Source: Bacteroidota bacterium (GTDB taxonomy: Bacteria > Bacteroidota > Bacteroidia > Flavobacteriales_F > PHOS-HE28). Taken from it: 64,000 nt of DNA. The stretch is taken from NCBI GenBank assembly GCA_014584605.1, contig JACTMO010000079.1, positions 1-64,000 on the forward strand, in the 5' to 3' direction. Below the pieces are notes generated by a model. The model was not told the origin of the DNA, ran no database searches, and saw only the letters and a program-made list of their open reading frames with translations. The position numbers were made by a program, and so were the translations under genes. Numbering within the stretch: position 1 is the stretch's first letter; the number at the start of each line of letters is the position of its first letter. Below are positions 2,666-7,981 of the stretch, piece after piece.

Positions 2666-4864
2666 ATGCCCCAACGGATCGCCACCTGCCTGCTGATCGC
2701 CATCTGCCTGGTCCTGGCCCCCGCCGCGTCCGGTCAGAGCGGAAAGGCGTTCTTCAAGGATGCCGAGGCGTTGCGCGAAGCCCAGCGGCTCACCGAGGCC
2801 CTGGAGAAGTACGGCCTGGCGGTGCAGGTGGAACCCGGCATGACCAAGGCCTACCAGGCCCGCGCAGAGGTCTTCGTCCTGCTGGGCCGGCGCGAGGATG
2901 CTGCGGCGGACCTGCTGAAGGTGCATGAGCTTGACCCCAGCGATGCCGGCCATGCCGCCCGCGCGGCCCTTGCCTTGCTGGAAGTGGGACGCGACCGCGA
3001 GGCCCGGACCTTGTGCGACAAGGCGCTGGCGATCGACCCGAAACACTTGGACGCCCTGGAGGCCAAGGTGCGCGTGTGCCTGGCACTGAACGACCTGGAC
3101 GGCGCCGCCGCCGCCAGCGATGCCGCCCTGGCCCAGAAGGGCACCACCGACACCTACTACCTGCACGGCCTGGTGCGCATGGCCCAGCGCGACTACCGCA
3201 CCGCCGAGGCCGATCTGGAGCGCGTGATCGAGTGGAACTACCTCTACGAGGATGCCTACGTGGCATTGGCCGAGGTGCAGCTCAAGCTCTTCGAGCAGTA
3301 CAGCGGCCCCACCATGCAACTGCGCACCCTGGACAAGGCCGTGGAACGGACCACCACCGCGCTGGAACTGAACCCGCGCAGCACCTCAGCGCTCTTCACC
3401 CGCAGCAAGGCGTACGCCCTGCAGAAGGAGTACGCCAAGGCCATCGACGACATCAGCAAGGTGATCGCCAACGGACGCACCGATGCCGAGGTGTTCCTCC
3501 AGCGCGCCCGCTACTACAACGGCCACGGCCAGCAGCAGAACGCGGTCAACGACCTGAACCGGGTGCTGCAGGAAAGGCCCGAGGACGTGCAGGCGCTGCT
3601 GCTGCGCGCCGCATGCAAGGAGGCCAACGTGGACCTCGAGGGGGCCCTGCACGACCTGGACCTGGCGGCCAAGGCCCTGCCCGACGGCCTCCACGCAGAA
3701 GGCGTCACGGCGCAGGACATCCAGGAGCGGCGCAAGCGGGTGGCCGATGCGCTCTTCGAGCTGAACCGGGAAGAGGACCCGCCGTCGATCACGCTGGTGG
3801 AGCCGGGCCGTGCAGGGGATGTTGTGCATGTGGGCAGCGCCCTGCGGCAGATCAAGGTCGCCGGGCATGTGCGCGACCGCAACCTGTTGAAGGCCATCCG
3901 CGTCAACGGCACGGAGGCCGACTTCGGCAAGGACGAGAAGGACCCGGAGTTCTTCACCAGCATCCCGTTGGCGGCCACCGAGGAGCGCCTCACCGTGGAG
4001 GCCGAGGATGTGTACGGCAACATCGCCACCATCGACCTGAAGGTGGAGCGTACCGAGGGGGAAGCACCGGTGCTGGTGCTGACCTCGCCCGAACCGGGCC
4101 CCGACCGGATCATCACCGTACCGCACGGCCGCGAGGAACTGTTCCTCGAAGGTCTGGCCACCGATGCCAGCATCATCCGCAGGGTGACGGTGGACGGCAT
4201 CGTGGCGAGCTACGTCCCCGACACCAACCGCACGGAGTTCAGCATCAAGCTGGTGATCGCCGGCAAGGACCGGATCACCGTGCGGGCCGAGGACCGTTTC
4301 GGCAACGCCGGCGAACTGCAGGTGCAACTGCAACGCAAAGCGGCCCCGCCGCCGACCGATGGCGGTGCCACGGCGGACAGGCCCGTCGAAAGACCTGCGG
4401 AACGGCCGCCCGGGAGGTCCGGTGGTGGTACCGTCTCCTCGGGGACCACCTGGGTGGTGTACATCGAGAACAGCGATTACCGCAGCTTCCCGGCCTTGCT
4501 GGGGCAGGGCAGCGATGCATCCAAGATGCAGAAGGCCTTCGCCAAGTACGATGTACAGCGCACCATCTCCCGGAAGAACATGAGCAAGCAACAGCTCGAG
4601 CGCTTCTTCAGCACCGAACTGCGCGACCTGGTGCGCAGCAACAAGGTGAACACCGTGCTGGTGTGGTATGCCGGACATGGCCGCACCGTGGGCGGCAAGA
4701 GCTACTGGATCCCCGTGGATGCGAAGAAGGATGACATCTACACCTTCTACAACTACGGCCCGCTGAAGAACCTGATCGAGAACTACAGCGAGTCGGTGTC
4801 GCATACGCTGGTGGTGAGCGATGCCGCCGGATCGGAGGCGAGCTTTTACGACCTCACCCGGTAG
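2666..4864 (+). CDS. Secreted TPR/Ig-like protein with degenerate C-terminal caspase-like domain
   Basis: 732 residues. A signal peptide (residues 1-24, ending AASGQ) is followed by about nine TPR helix pairs (about 25-370), two Ig-like domains (about 375-560, each with an ED-x-(Y/F)-GN-A/I motif), a Pro/Arg/Gly-rich linker (about 560-590) and a caspase (peptidase C14)-like domain from about 593. The catalytic histidine is present in WYAGHGR (His671). Where the catalytic cysteine normally sits (DAC-x-G) the sequence reads SDAAGSE, so Ala721 replaces Cys. The protein then stops 11 residues later, losing the rest of the p10-like half. No continuation exists in another frame, because the next gene begins with its own signal peptide three bases after the stop. 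The domain is therefore probably a non-proteolytic binding module. Likely co-transcribed with the downstream cyclase. Confidence 0.8.
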   Translation: MPQRIATCLLIAICLVLAPAASGQSGKAFFKDAEALREAQRLTEALEKYGLAVQVEPGMTKAYQARAEVFVLLGRREDAAADLLKVHELDPSDAGHAARAALALLEVGRDREARTLCDKALAIDPKHLDALEAKVRVCLALNDLDGAAAASDAALAQKGTTDTYYLHGLVRMAQRDYRTAEADLERVIEWNYLYEDAYVALAEVQLKLFEQYSGPTMQLRTLDKAVERTTTALELNPRSTSALFTRSKAYALQKEYAKAIDDISKVIANGRTDAEVFLQRARYYNGHGQQQNAVNDLNRVLQERPEDVQALLLRAACKEANVDLEGALHDLDLAAKALPDGLHAEGVTAQDIQERRKRVADALFELNREEDPPSITLVEPGRAGDVVHVGSALRQIKVAGHVRDRNLLKAIRVNGTEADFGKDEKDPEFFTSIPLAATEERLTVEAEDVYGNIATIDLKVERTEGEAPVLVLTSPEPGPDRIITVPHGREELFLEGLATDASIIRRVTVDGIVASYVPDTNRTEFSIKLVIAGKDRITVRAEDRFGNAGELQVQLQRKAAPPPTDGGATADRPVERPAERPPGRSGGGTVSSGTTWVVYIENSDYRSFPALLGQGSDASKMQKAFAKYDVQRTISRKNMSKQQLERFFSTELRDLVRSNKVNTVLVWYAGHGRTVGGKSYWIPVDAKKDDIYTFYNYGPLKNLIENYSESVSHTLVVSDAAGSEASFYDLTR

Positions 4865-4867
4865 CCG

Positions 4868-7800
4868 ATGCGGGCCATCCTCTCCTTCCTGGTGGCGGCC
4901 ATGGCTCTGCCCTTGGCCGGGCAGCGCTTCTACTTCGAGCGCCTCGACATGCGGAACGGGCTCACCTCGGGCAACGTTTATGACGTGGTGCAGGACAGTA
5001 CGGGCCTGGTGTGGCTGGGCACGGAGGACGGGCTGGTGAGCTTTGACGGTCGCGAGCGGACGGGCATCGCCACCTACGGGCCAGCGGAAGGCACCGCCGC
5101 CAAAGGCGTACGCTGCCTGATGATCGACCGGGATGGCAGGCTCTGGGCGGGTCATACCGGAGGGGGCATCACGCGGTCCTCCGGCAGTTCCTTTTCCGTC
5201 CTGACCCTTCCGGGCGAACCGCTCACCACGGATATCACCGCCCTGGTGCAGGATGCCGATGCCGCCGTGTGGGTGGCCACGATGGGGCAGGGCGCCCTGC
5301 GCATCGGTCCCGTTGCGCACGGCGGTCCGCTGACGGTGGAGCGCTTCGGTCACGACCAGGGGCTGCTGGACCACCTGGTGGACGCCCATCGTTTCCGCGA
5401 CGGCACCCTCGCCTTCCTGGAGGACGGCGGGACCATGAAACGCTGGGACCCCACCACCCGGCGCTTCACCTCCCTGGAGTGGAAAGGGATGGAGGATGTG
5501 CTGGGCATCAGCGCCCTGTACGAGGACTCGAACGGACGTCGATGGCTGGGCACACAGGCCAGTGGCGCCTTCGTGCTGGACCCCCGCAGCGGCCAGGTGG
5601 TCAACCACAACGTGGCCGGTGGGATGCCGAGCGATTTCGTGACCTGCTTCGGCGAAGATGCCGTCGGCCAGGTGTGGGTGGGCACCTGGGGCGGTGGTGC
5701 CGCGGTGATCGGGTTGCAGGGCATCCGTCGCCACTACCACCCCGGCAACGGCTTGGAGAGCGTGCACATCCGCCGGATCATCCGGGACCGCGAGGGCAAC
5801 ATGCTGCTGGCCACCAACGACCGCGGTCTCAACATCTTCAAAGGGGAGCAGTTCATGAACCTGCTGGAGCAGGACGGGCTTCCGGACCAGCAGGTCTGGG
5901 CCGTGATGGAGGACCGCTTGGGCCGCATCTGGTTCGGCACCGACGGGGGCTTGAGCGTCCTGGACCCCCGCGTACAGGGCACCGGGATGATCAAGAACAT
6001 GCAAACGGTGCGCACCGCGCGGGTGCGTGCGCTGGCGCAGGGCCGCAACGGCAACGTGTGGGTGGGTACCGAGAACGACGGGCTGGTGGAGTTGGACCCC
6101 GTGGCCTTCCAGCCCGTGCCGCACCCCGACCTGGACGTGCTGATCCCGCGCGGCAAGGTGACCGCCCTGGCCGTGGGCGGGTCGGACGATCTGTACATCG
6201 GCACCATCACCGGCCTGCGTCGGTACACCGAAGGTGCGCCGCCCATGGTGTACACCGAAGAGGACGGCGTGCCCGCCGCACCGGTGACCGCCCTGTTCTG
6301 CGACACCCAGGGCACCGTGTGGGTCGGCAGCAAGGACCGGGGGATCAGCCGCATCGACCAGGGCAGGGCCAGACCGGTGGACCTGGGAAGGAGCCTGACG
6401 CCCACAGCCTTCGCGCAGGACGATCGCGGCCGCCTCTGGGTGGGCACCCGCAACCAGGGCCTGGTGGTGCTCGCGGACGGCCGTGAGGAACGCACCTGGA
6501 CCCAGGACGACGGCCTCCTGGACAACACGGTGCGCTCCTTGTTGTACGACGCCGGGGGCGCCCTGTGGATCGGGACCGTGAACGGGCTCAACTGCCGGCC
6601 CAAGGGCCAGGATGGCTTTCTGCCTTACACGGAACGCTCGGGCTTCATCGGGGTGGAGGCCAAGCCCAATGCCGCCTGTCTCACCCGCTCCGGCGATCTG
6701 TGGTTCGGCACGGCCCGCGGCGCCACCCGCGTGGTACCTGGAATGGGGAAAGGAGCGCCCACGCCTCCGATCACGGCGCTGCGCGGGCTCAGCGTGAACC
6801 AGGAGGACCGCCCCTTGGAACAGGACCTGAGCCTGGCGCACAACGAACGGTCCATCCGCATCCGGTACGGCTCGGTGAGCCTGAGCGACCCCGGCGCCGT
6901 GCGCTACAGCACCTTCCTGGAAGGGCTCGACCCCGACTGGCAGCCCTTGACGACGACCACCGAGGCGTTCTTCCCGGCACTGCCGCCCGGCCGCTACACC
7001 TTCCAGGTGAAGAGCATCAACCACGCCGGCTTGTGGAGCCCCCCGGTCAGCCTGTCCTTCACGGTCCTGCCGCCCTGGTACCGCACGTGGTGGTTCTACA
7101 CGGCGCTCACGGCCTTCATCGCGCTGGTGCTCTTCAGTTGGGTGAAGGTGCGCGAACGCCAGCTGCGGGCACGCAACCAGCTGCTGGAGACCAAGGTGGA
7201 GGAACGAACGGCCGAGGTCCGGGCCCAAAGCCGCGAGATCGAGTACCAGAAGGGCCGCATCGAGGACCTGCTGCTGAACATCCTGCCCAAGGAAGTGAGT
7301 GAAGAGCTCAAGGACAAGGGCCGGGCGACGGCGCGGCGCCACGAGGCGGTCACCGTGCTCTTCACGGACATGAAGGGTTTCACCAAGGCCGCGGAGAACA
7401 TGAGCCCTGAAGAACTGGTCAGCGAGCTGGACGAGTGCTTCATCCGCTTCGATGAGATCACGGTCCGCTACGGTATCGAGAAGATCAAGACCATCGGGGA
7501 CAGCTACATGTGTGCCGCCGGCGTGCCGGTCGCGGACCCGCACCACGCGGTGAAATGCGTACTGGCCGCGCTGGAGGTGCGCGACCTCATGGAGGATGCG
7601 CGCCGTCAGCGCGAGGCCAGGGGCAAGGCACCGTGGGCCCTGCGCATCGGGGTGCACAGCGGTCCGGTGGTGGCCGGCGTGGTGGGAAGGCGCAAGTTCG
7701 CCTACGACATCTGGGGCGATACGGTGAACACCGCCAGCCGGCTGGAGAGCAGCGGCGAACCGGGGGAGGTGAACATCAGTGGCACCACCCATGCCCTGGT

Positions 7801-7981
7801 CAAGGGCCGCTTCGAGTGCGCATACCGCGGACGCGTGGCCGCCAAGAACAAGGGCGAGATCGACATGTACTTCGTGCGTCGCATCCTTCCCGGCTTCAGT
7901 GCCGATGAGGCGGGCAGCAAGCCGAACGCGCGGTTCCTGCAGGAGATCGGCGTGGCTTCAACCGCCGAGCAGCTCGCGTAG
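4868..7981 (+). CDS. Membrane adenylate cyclase with two-component-type propeller sensor
   Basis: 1037 residues: signal peptide (1-19), a periplasmic beta-propeller of repeated VWVGT/LWFGT-type units (about 20-640), a Y_Y_Y Ig-like domain (about 650-735, ending FTVLPPWYRTWW), one membrane helix (about 741-762), a coiled coil (about 765-815) and a class III nucleotide cyclase domain (about 820-1010). Both metal aspartates are present (Asp834 in FTDMKGFT, Asp878 in IGDSYM). The substrate-selecting pair is Lys874 and Asp947, the combination that reads adenine; Asn954 and Arg958 complete the active site. It should act as a homodimer making cAMP in response to a periplasmic ligand. In Bacteroidota this sensor normally feeds a histidine kinase. 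The gene starts 3 bases after the preceding stop, and its last 24 bases overlap the convergent Nudix gene. Confidence 0.9.
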   Translation: MRAILSFLVAAMALPLAGQRFYFERLDMRNGLTSGNVYDVVQDSTGLVWLGTEDGLVSFDGRERTGIATYGPAEGTAAKGVRCLMIDRDGRLWAGHTGGGITRSSGSSFSVLTLPGEPLTTDITALVQDADAAVWVATMGQGALRIGPVAHGGPLTVERFGHDQGLLDHLVDAHRFRDGTLAFLEDGGTMKRWDPTTRRFTSLEWKGMEDVLGISALYEDSNGRRWLGTQASGAFVLDPRSGQVVNHNVAGGMPSDFVTCFGEDAVGQVWVGTWGGGAAVIGLQGIRRHYHPGNGLESVHIRRIIRDREGNMLLATNDRGLNIFKGEQFMNLLEQDGLPDQQVWAVMEDRLGRIWFGTDGGLSVLDPRVQGTGMIKNMQTVRTARVRALAQGRNGNVWVGTENDGLVELDPVAFQPVPHPDLDVLIPRGKVTALAVGGSDDLYIGTITGLRRYTEGAPPMVYTEEDGVPAAPVTALFCDTQGTVWVGSKDRGISRIDQGRARPVDLGRSLTPTAFAQDDRGRLWVGTRNQGLVVLADGREERTWTQDDGLLDNTVRSLLYDAGGALWIGTVNGLNCRPKGQDGFLPYTERSGFIGVEAKPNAACLTRSGDLWFGTARGATRVVPGMGKGAPTPPITALRGLSVNQEDRPLEQDLSLAHNERSIRIRYGSVSLSDPGAVRYSTFLEGLDPDWQPLTTTTEAFFPALPPGRYTFQVKSINHAGLWSPPVSLSFTVLPPWYRTWWFYTALTAFIALVLFSWVKVRERQLRARNQLLETKVEERTAEVRAQSREIEYQKGRIEDLLLNILPKEVSEELKDKGRATARRHEAVTVLFTDMKGFTKAAENMSPEELVSELDECFIRFDEITVRYGIEKIKTIGDSYMCAAGVPVADPHHAVKCVLAALEVRDLMEDARRQREARGKAPWALRIGVHSGPVVAGVVGRRKFAYDIWGDTVNTASRLESSGEPGEVNISGTTHALVKGRFECAYRGRVAAKNKGEIDMYFVRRILPGFSADEAGSKPNARFLQEIGVASTAEQLA

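Follow-up and report, generated by a model that had tools for sequence, protein, structure and literature searches.

A propeller-adenylate cyclase receptor and its pseudocaspase neighbour: a candidate two-gene signalling module in uncultured Bacteroidota

The 64,000-nucleotide stretch of Bacteroidota DNA analysed here (the window) carries two adjacent genes, P0002 and P0001, which we lean towards viewing as one trans-membrane signalling module, made up of a non-proteolytic pseudocaspase partner and a cAMP receptor whose output would have been exchanged from a PP2C phosphatase. The individual domains are known. Apparently unreported is their combination into a two-gene module that keeps a pseudocaspase and would have had its output exchanged. 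An earlier, sequence-only reading had described the receptor as a propeller and Y_Y_Y sensor joined to a class III cyclase, which the open reading frame, Pfam, the structural model and the fold matches all bear out. That account holds for the cAMP-type output and the external input, but it overlooked the partner gene (2666-4864), which is paired with the sensor in both of the output types described below.

Propeller receptors of Bacteroidota are known as histidine kinases, and we know of little that assigns a role to bacterial caspase homologues. If our reading is correct, a cAMP-making, ligand-gated membrane receptor is added to the phylum Bacteroidota, and nature provides an example of a single input coupled to two distinct second-step chemistries. 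The two-gene module ties bacterial caspase homologues to a defined receptor. Some lineages have this input together with a phosphatase and an intact caspase, others with a cyclase and a caspase that is dead, which opens a direct way of testing what caspase catalysis does in bacterial signalling.

Architecture of the receptor

The receptor gene and its parts are as follows.

4868..7981, + strand: P0001, propeller-Y_Y_Y-TM-adenylate cyclase receptor gene, 1037 aa (open reading frame, Pfam, AlphaFold2)
4868..4924, + strand: predicted signal peptide, residues 1-19 (sequence reading; predicted helix 2-11 in the model)
4925..6763, + strand: Reg_prop beta-propeller ectodomain, about residues 20-632 (Pfam; BT4663-like fold)
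6884..7069, + strand: Y_Y_Y domain, residues 673-734 (Pfam)
7088..7153, + strand: transmembrane helix, about residues 741-762 (hydrophobic stretch; model helix 741-769)
7154..7330, + strand: coiled-coil / LLLNILPKEVSEEL linker preceding the cyclase, residues 763-821 (sequence, Pfam, model)
7331..7876, + strand: class III cyclase domain, residues 822-1003 (Pfam; catalytic residues; conservation)

Pfam matched Reg_prop in seven stretches, each of which passes singly (E 8.8e-49), Y_Y_Y at residues 673-734 (E 1.1e-13) and Guanylate_cyc at residues 822-1003 (E 2.8e-54), with a weak HNOBA match at 766-814 in the linker. The Pfam scan of P0001 found no histidine kinase domain; the cyclase occupies the output position. 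On the input side, P0001 has the Reg_prop propellers, Y_Y_Y domain and membrane helix of a HTCS, as judged from Pfam, model and fold. The AlphaFold2 model comprises the propellers, the Y_Y_Y domain, helix 741-769, helix 780-803 (with low pLDDT) and the cyclase; its mean pLDDT is 79.5, and residues 759-811, 874-879 and 937-949 are of low confidence.

When the model was compared with the PDB, the first 10 fold matches were chains of the BT4663 ectodomain, with TM-scores <=0.81 of the target, followed by BT3049 and BT4673; the bacterial adenylyl cyclase domains 5o5l and 5o5k came at ranks 23 and 34. By sequence, the nearest solved chains of the C-terminal part are mammalian and bacterial adenylate cyclases, and that of the ectodomain is BT4663, whose PDB entry refers to a sensing system for heparin/heparan sulphate. 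P0001 thus has in common with BT4663-type HTCS (PDB 4a2l, 4a2m, 3v9f) a two-propeller/Y_Y_Y periplasmic ectodomain. In contrast, the output of the latter is a histidine kinase/response regulator rather than a class III cyclase, and unlike them P0001 has a dedicated, predicted secreted partner encoded upstream. Conversely, the cyclase domain and its catalytic residues are like those of mammalian adenylate cyclases types 5, 8 and 9 and of bacterial Cya (PDB 5o5k, 4p2f), unlike which P0001 has an HTCS-type ectodomain as its membrane input. An identity as the type IX secretion protein PorZ was rejected, as the NCBIfam model scored 60.9 bits against a cut-off of 260 and matched the propeller part alone.

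Catalytic residues and likely product of the cyclase

Asp834, Lys874, Asp878, Asp947, Asn954 and Arg958 are all found in P0001, exactly as the sequence-only reading had listed them. We aligned 53 orthologue rows, many of which are the same genes fetched twice and three of which are cut by contig ends. Asp834, Lys874 and Asp878 are identical in 53/53 rows, and Asp947, Asn954 and Arg958 in all 50 rows long enough to include them. We take these residues to be the two metal-binding Asp, the adenine-selecting Lys and Asp, and the transition-state Asn and Arg, with Lys874 and Asp947 presumably forming an adenine-type pair. The full residue set of a class III adenylate cyclase is thus present on one chain, so that a homodimer would hold two complete active sites. 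Given its conservation, the cyclase very probably uses ATP, and its product is likely cAMP.

The earlier proposal of cAMP signalling in response to an external ligand agrees with the presence of an HTCS-type ectodomain on a complete adenine-type cyclase. The same reading had pointed to CRP-family regulators as a check and would have been refuted by a genome with no cAMP-binding regulator. This is not outright the case, as the genome codes for four CRP-like proteins with cNMP-binding domains, and such domains are present in all 44 genus genomes searched; however, by reading, 0/4 of the proteins of the own genome carry G-E-[LI] ... R-[ST], which we take to be the classical cAMP phosphate-binding motif of the CRP family. 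Two of the four were aligned to solved relatives that do carry the motif residues. The absence of the motif would fit a cyclase that makes another nucleotide (cGMP or a mixture) or acts mainly through protein contacts, with the CRP-like regulators unrelated to it. We regard this as very improbable, since the Lys874/Asp947 pair, presumably adenine-type, is invariant in the rows that cover both residues and the closest solved relatives of the domain are adenylate cyclases.

One of the cNMP-binding proteins, encoded at L027:3844-4905 (- strand), is a response regulator that combines a receiver, a cNMP-binding and a Crp-type HTH domain and may be CRP-like and gated by phosphorylation. In many same-genus genomes, the best cNMP-binding match is a protein whose frame is of similar length.

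Our literature search is in keeping with the view that such signalling has been little described in Bacteroidota; so is a 2005 census, in which none of the four Bacteroidetes sequenced by then was reported to have an adenylate cyclase (PMC1183210). No publication on a propeller/Y_Y_Y plus cyclase or a caspase plus propeller arrangement was found in a search whose scope left subscription journals and preprints mostly outside.

The partner protein

The gene upstream of the receptor has the following parts.

2666..4864, + strand: P0002, partner gene, predicted secreted TPR-Ig-Ig-pseudocaspase, 732 aa (Pfam, neighbourhood, AlphaFold2)
2741..3676, + strand: TPR superhelix, residues 26-337 (Pfam, AlphaFold2, Foldseek)
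3785..4336, + strand: two Ig-like beta domains, residues 374-557 (Glucodextran_B match 396-461; strands in the model)
4445..4861, + strand: caspase p20-like domain, residues 594-732 (Pfam, core alignment, AlphaFold2)

P0002 starts with an export-signal-like stretch, followed by TPRs and by Glucodextran_B and Peptidase_C14 matches; the latter (E 3.2e-8) is the sole Peptidase_C14 match in the genome. The AlphaFold2 model (mean pLDDT 84.2, the linker before the caspase-like core being of low confidence) shows a TPR superhelix at 26-337, beta domains at 374-463 and 469-557 and a caspase-like core at 594-732. The top 50 Foldseek matches listed for it include TPR proteins and do not address the caspase part. 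His671 of the catalytic dyad is kept, the Cys position is occupied by Ala721 and the p10 half is absent. P0002 therefore lacks the His-Cys dyad of active caspases and orthocaspases and is a pseudo-orthocaspase, i.e. a p20 domain with a substituted catalytic residue.

Pseudo-orthocaspases (PMC6426788) share with P0002 a p20 domain with a substituted dyad, and some of those described earlier also have TPRs; that survey gives only 10 pseudo-variants among 1078 Bacteroidetes sequences. Relative to them, P0002 differs by having Ala for Cys with the His kept, a missing C-terminal half, an export-signal-like N-terminus and a pairing with a receptor.

The end of P0002 and the start of P0001 are separated by TAG CCG (4862-4867), and the two open reading frames share one frame. 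A fusion by read-through was considered and rejected: the gap is of 13 nt in L070 and 10 nt in L071 and variable elsewhere, and thus read-through is not conserved.

Pairing of the two genes within the genus

The group that carries the pair consists of uncultured Bacteroidota. A first orthologue search covered 58 genomes, i.e. the own genome, 34 of the same genus and 23 others, and found full-length or contig-cut P0001 orthologues (48-86% identity) in 27 of the 34 same-genus genomes. A second search of 17 genomes, seven of them without an orthologue in the first, added 10 more orthologues and a contig-end fragment in G034, located 77 bases past the TPR gene. The architecture thus recurs in related genomes, where the sequence-only reading had suggested looking for it.

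A search for the TPR gene covered 45 genus genomes, of which 42 have it; the receptor is present in 38 of the 45, with a fragment in one more. The three genomes devoid of the TPR gene (G020, G026 and G028, two of which are 99% complete) are also devoid of the receptor. In G001, G015 and G030 the TPR gene is partial and the receptor was not found. At all 29 genus loci that hold both genes, the TPR gene lies directly upstream of the receptor on the same strand, with a gap of -4 to 203 nt, usually 3-76 nt. P0002-P0001 corresponds to what we define here as a caspase-propeller module, i.e. a propeller/Y_Y_Y receptor gene immediately preceded by one for a TPR-Ig-caspase. From this neighbourhood and co-occurrence, we infer that the two proteins may form a physical complex. 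The partner-sensor distances correlate with r 0.83, or 0.71 after FabI, compared with r 0.75 for partner-FabI, all these genes being neighbours; the first value is only modestly above the last and lends weak support to the two forming a module.

A gene for a DUF5723 protein (1148-2614 in the window) lies upstream of the module, and a homologue occupies the same place in 5/27 genus loci (L067, L068, L069, L073 and L081).

The same pair with a phosphatase output

Partner homologues (E <= 1e-20) were found in 49 of 295 sampled genomes of the class, and we inspected 39 loci outside the genus and one within it. At 14 of these 39, the gene that follows codes for a propeller/Y_Y_Y receptor that ends in a phosphatase domain, identified as SpoIIE by Pfam, after a gap of 0-46 nt or an overlap of 37. 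At 22, there is no sensor neighbour; the sensor is cut by a contig end in L139, and L144 and L154 run off their contigs. Together with a further locus in G039 (L102), the phosphatase pairing spans seven family codes.

A scan of named genomes gave 270 relatives, the best 80 of which, all from MAGs, were analysed; its patterns, which included [VI]WYAGHG[KR], favour rows that keep the His, though not the Cys. Downstream of these 80 are 24 sensors with a cyclase, 45 with PP2C and eight whose output is cut or was not seen. For the remaining three, nothing was found in the stretch read around each; two of them are at contig ends, and L214 has a PP2C-type sensor with an overlapping start.

In L102, L137, L202 and similar loci, from several families, a TPR-Ig-caspase with an intact His-Cys dyad is encoded directly upstream of a SpoIIE/PP2C propeller receptor. 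A full-text search, with subscription journals and preprints mostly outside its scope, found no report of such a pair. Its gene order, TPR-Ig-caspase and sensor architecture are the same as those of P0002-P0001, unlike which it has a phosphatase output, a complete dyad and the p10 half.

These loci bear on a rival account, according to which P0001 senses its ligand alone, in the manner of BT4663-type HTCS, and makes cAMP, while P0002 shares no more than transcription with it and has a task of its own in the envelope. The closeness in fold of the P0001 ectodomain to BT4663 and the homologues without a sensor neighbour are in keeping with it. Nevertheless, the invariant adjacency in the genus, the joint absence from three genomes and the recurrence of the pairing with a different output in seven family codes lead us to consider it rather unlikely, and we favour a functional pair.

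Dead and intact caspases

None of the 33 distinct cyclase-linked caspase cores has a Cys at position 721 (31 have Ala, one Ser and one Val); three have also lost the His, and all 33 end at the same residue. In contrast, the 56 distinct PP2C-linked cores all have both His and Cys and 93-95 further C-terminal residues. Among 17 cores without a sensor neighbour, the dyad is kept in 10 and lost in seven. Loss of the dyad is thus not peculiar to the cyclase form, whereas truncation is confined to cyclase-linked cores among those compared. Since cyclase output and caspase death fall on one branch, their association counts as one event rather than many.

In three close pairs, the dN/dS of the pseudocaspase domain is 0.089-0.141. 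The TPR and Ig parts give 0.22-0.25 and 0.21-0.32, the sensor 0.18-0.24 and the cyclase 0.08-0.17, so that the pseudocaspase domain is the most constrained part of its own protein and resembles the cyclase in this respect. These low values suggest that selection maintains the domain for a role other than catalysis.

The invariant dyad of the PP2C-linked cores suggests that proteolysis matters there. The caspase might hence be the primary sensor or processor, cleaving a substrate to make or release the signal in the PP2C form; with this step lost, the cyclase-linked receptor would be constitutive or respond to another cue. We find this improbable, because a mere relic would decay and the pseudocaspase of the cyclase form is strongly conserved. 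A retained binding role for the pseudocaspase is the reading that we prefer.

Origin of the cyclase output

In a careful sensor tree of 46 rows, the cyclase-linked group forms one clade (100/100) inside a larger PP2C-linked clade (100/100), and other propeller-cyclases stand well apart from it. This set of rows was obtained after a first quick tree with long branches that met, by dropping eight long rows and adding 10 named PP2C-linked ones. Forcing all PP2C-linked sensors into one clade cost 35 log units (AU p = 0.014), and forcing all cyclase-linked sensors into one clade cost 61 (AU p = 0.0009), both tests having been named after the first sensor tree was seen. In the cyclase domain tree, P0001-type domains fall together with those of the other propeller-cyclases (100/99) and away from TPR-cyclases. 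The nesting of the sensor together with this grouping of the cyclase fits an exchange of outputs, and it looks as if a phosphatase was replaced by an adenylate cyclase while the partner caspase was retained as a pseudoenzyme. In the TPR-Ig tree, built without seven homologues and the window-genus row L090 that the cutting pattern did not match, the genus is one clade on a long branch attached elsewhere than in the sensor tree; it neither confirms nor contradicts the nesting of the cyclase form.

The sequence-only reading had noted that such sensors normally feed a histidine kinase. The sensor of P0001 probably does not come from one, as its nearest relatives in the trees and loci are sensors with a SpoIIE/PP2C output. 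A close kinship with the propeller kinases of the genome, or with its second propeller-cyclase (L021, see below), was also unsupported in the sensor trees.

As we picture the system, the TPR-Ig-pseudocaspase P0002 would be periplasmic and, without proteolysis, would assist the propeller dimer as a co-receptor or by presenting its ligand. Such binding would shift the register of the Y_Y_Y domain, transmembrane helix and coiled coil of P0001, altering how the two cyclase domains pair and, with it, the production of cAMP from ATP. The ancestor would have been a caspase, propeller and SpoIIE/PP2C phosphatase module whose cytoplasmic output was exchanged; around that exchange, the caspase would have lost its Cys and p10 half, while strong selection would have maintained it for binding. 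That a caspase fold devoid of proteolysis acts as the extracytoplasmic co-receptor of a cAMP receptor, and that it evolved by an output swap from an active-caspase and PP2C module, is a proposal that we put forward tentatively.

Other cyclases of the genome

The own genome has 11 class III cyclase matches. Seven were scanned with Pfam and comprise two propeller-cyclases, P0001 and L021:123-3248, and five TPR-cyclases. Of the eight Y_Y_Y matches in the genome, two are these propeller-cyclases, and several others adjoin response-regulator-like genes. The gene at L021:123-3248 (C64) codes for a second, distant propeller-Y_Y_Y-cyclase that is also present in other same-genus genomes; no TPR-caspase neighbour was found in the stretch read around it. 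Two weak class III cyclase matches in L025 (C4:2314-2829, + strand, and 4227-4745, - strand) have membrane-spanning-looking N-termini and are apparently of another subtype.

At L022:4927-12004 (C49), a tandem array of three genes for TPR-class III cyclases is followed by a further weak, partial cyclase match. The cyclase domains of the TPR-class III cyclases L022, L023 and L024 are related to that of P0001, but these proteins have a TPR input in one chain and form a separate group in the cyclase tree. Two propeller-cyclases of the same genus, L103:3445-6945 and L104:3051-6749, have cyclase domains that group with those of TPR-cyclases, which suggests a separate fusion.
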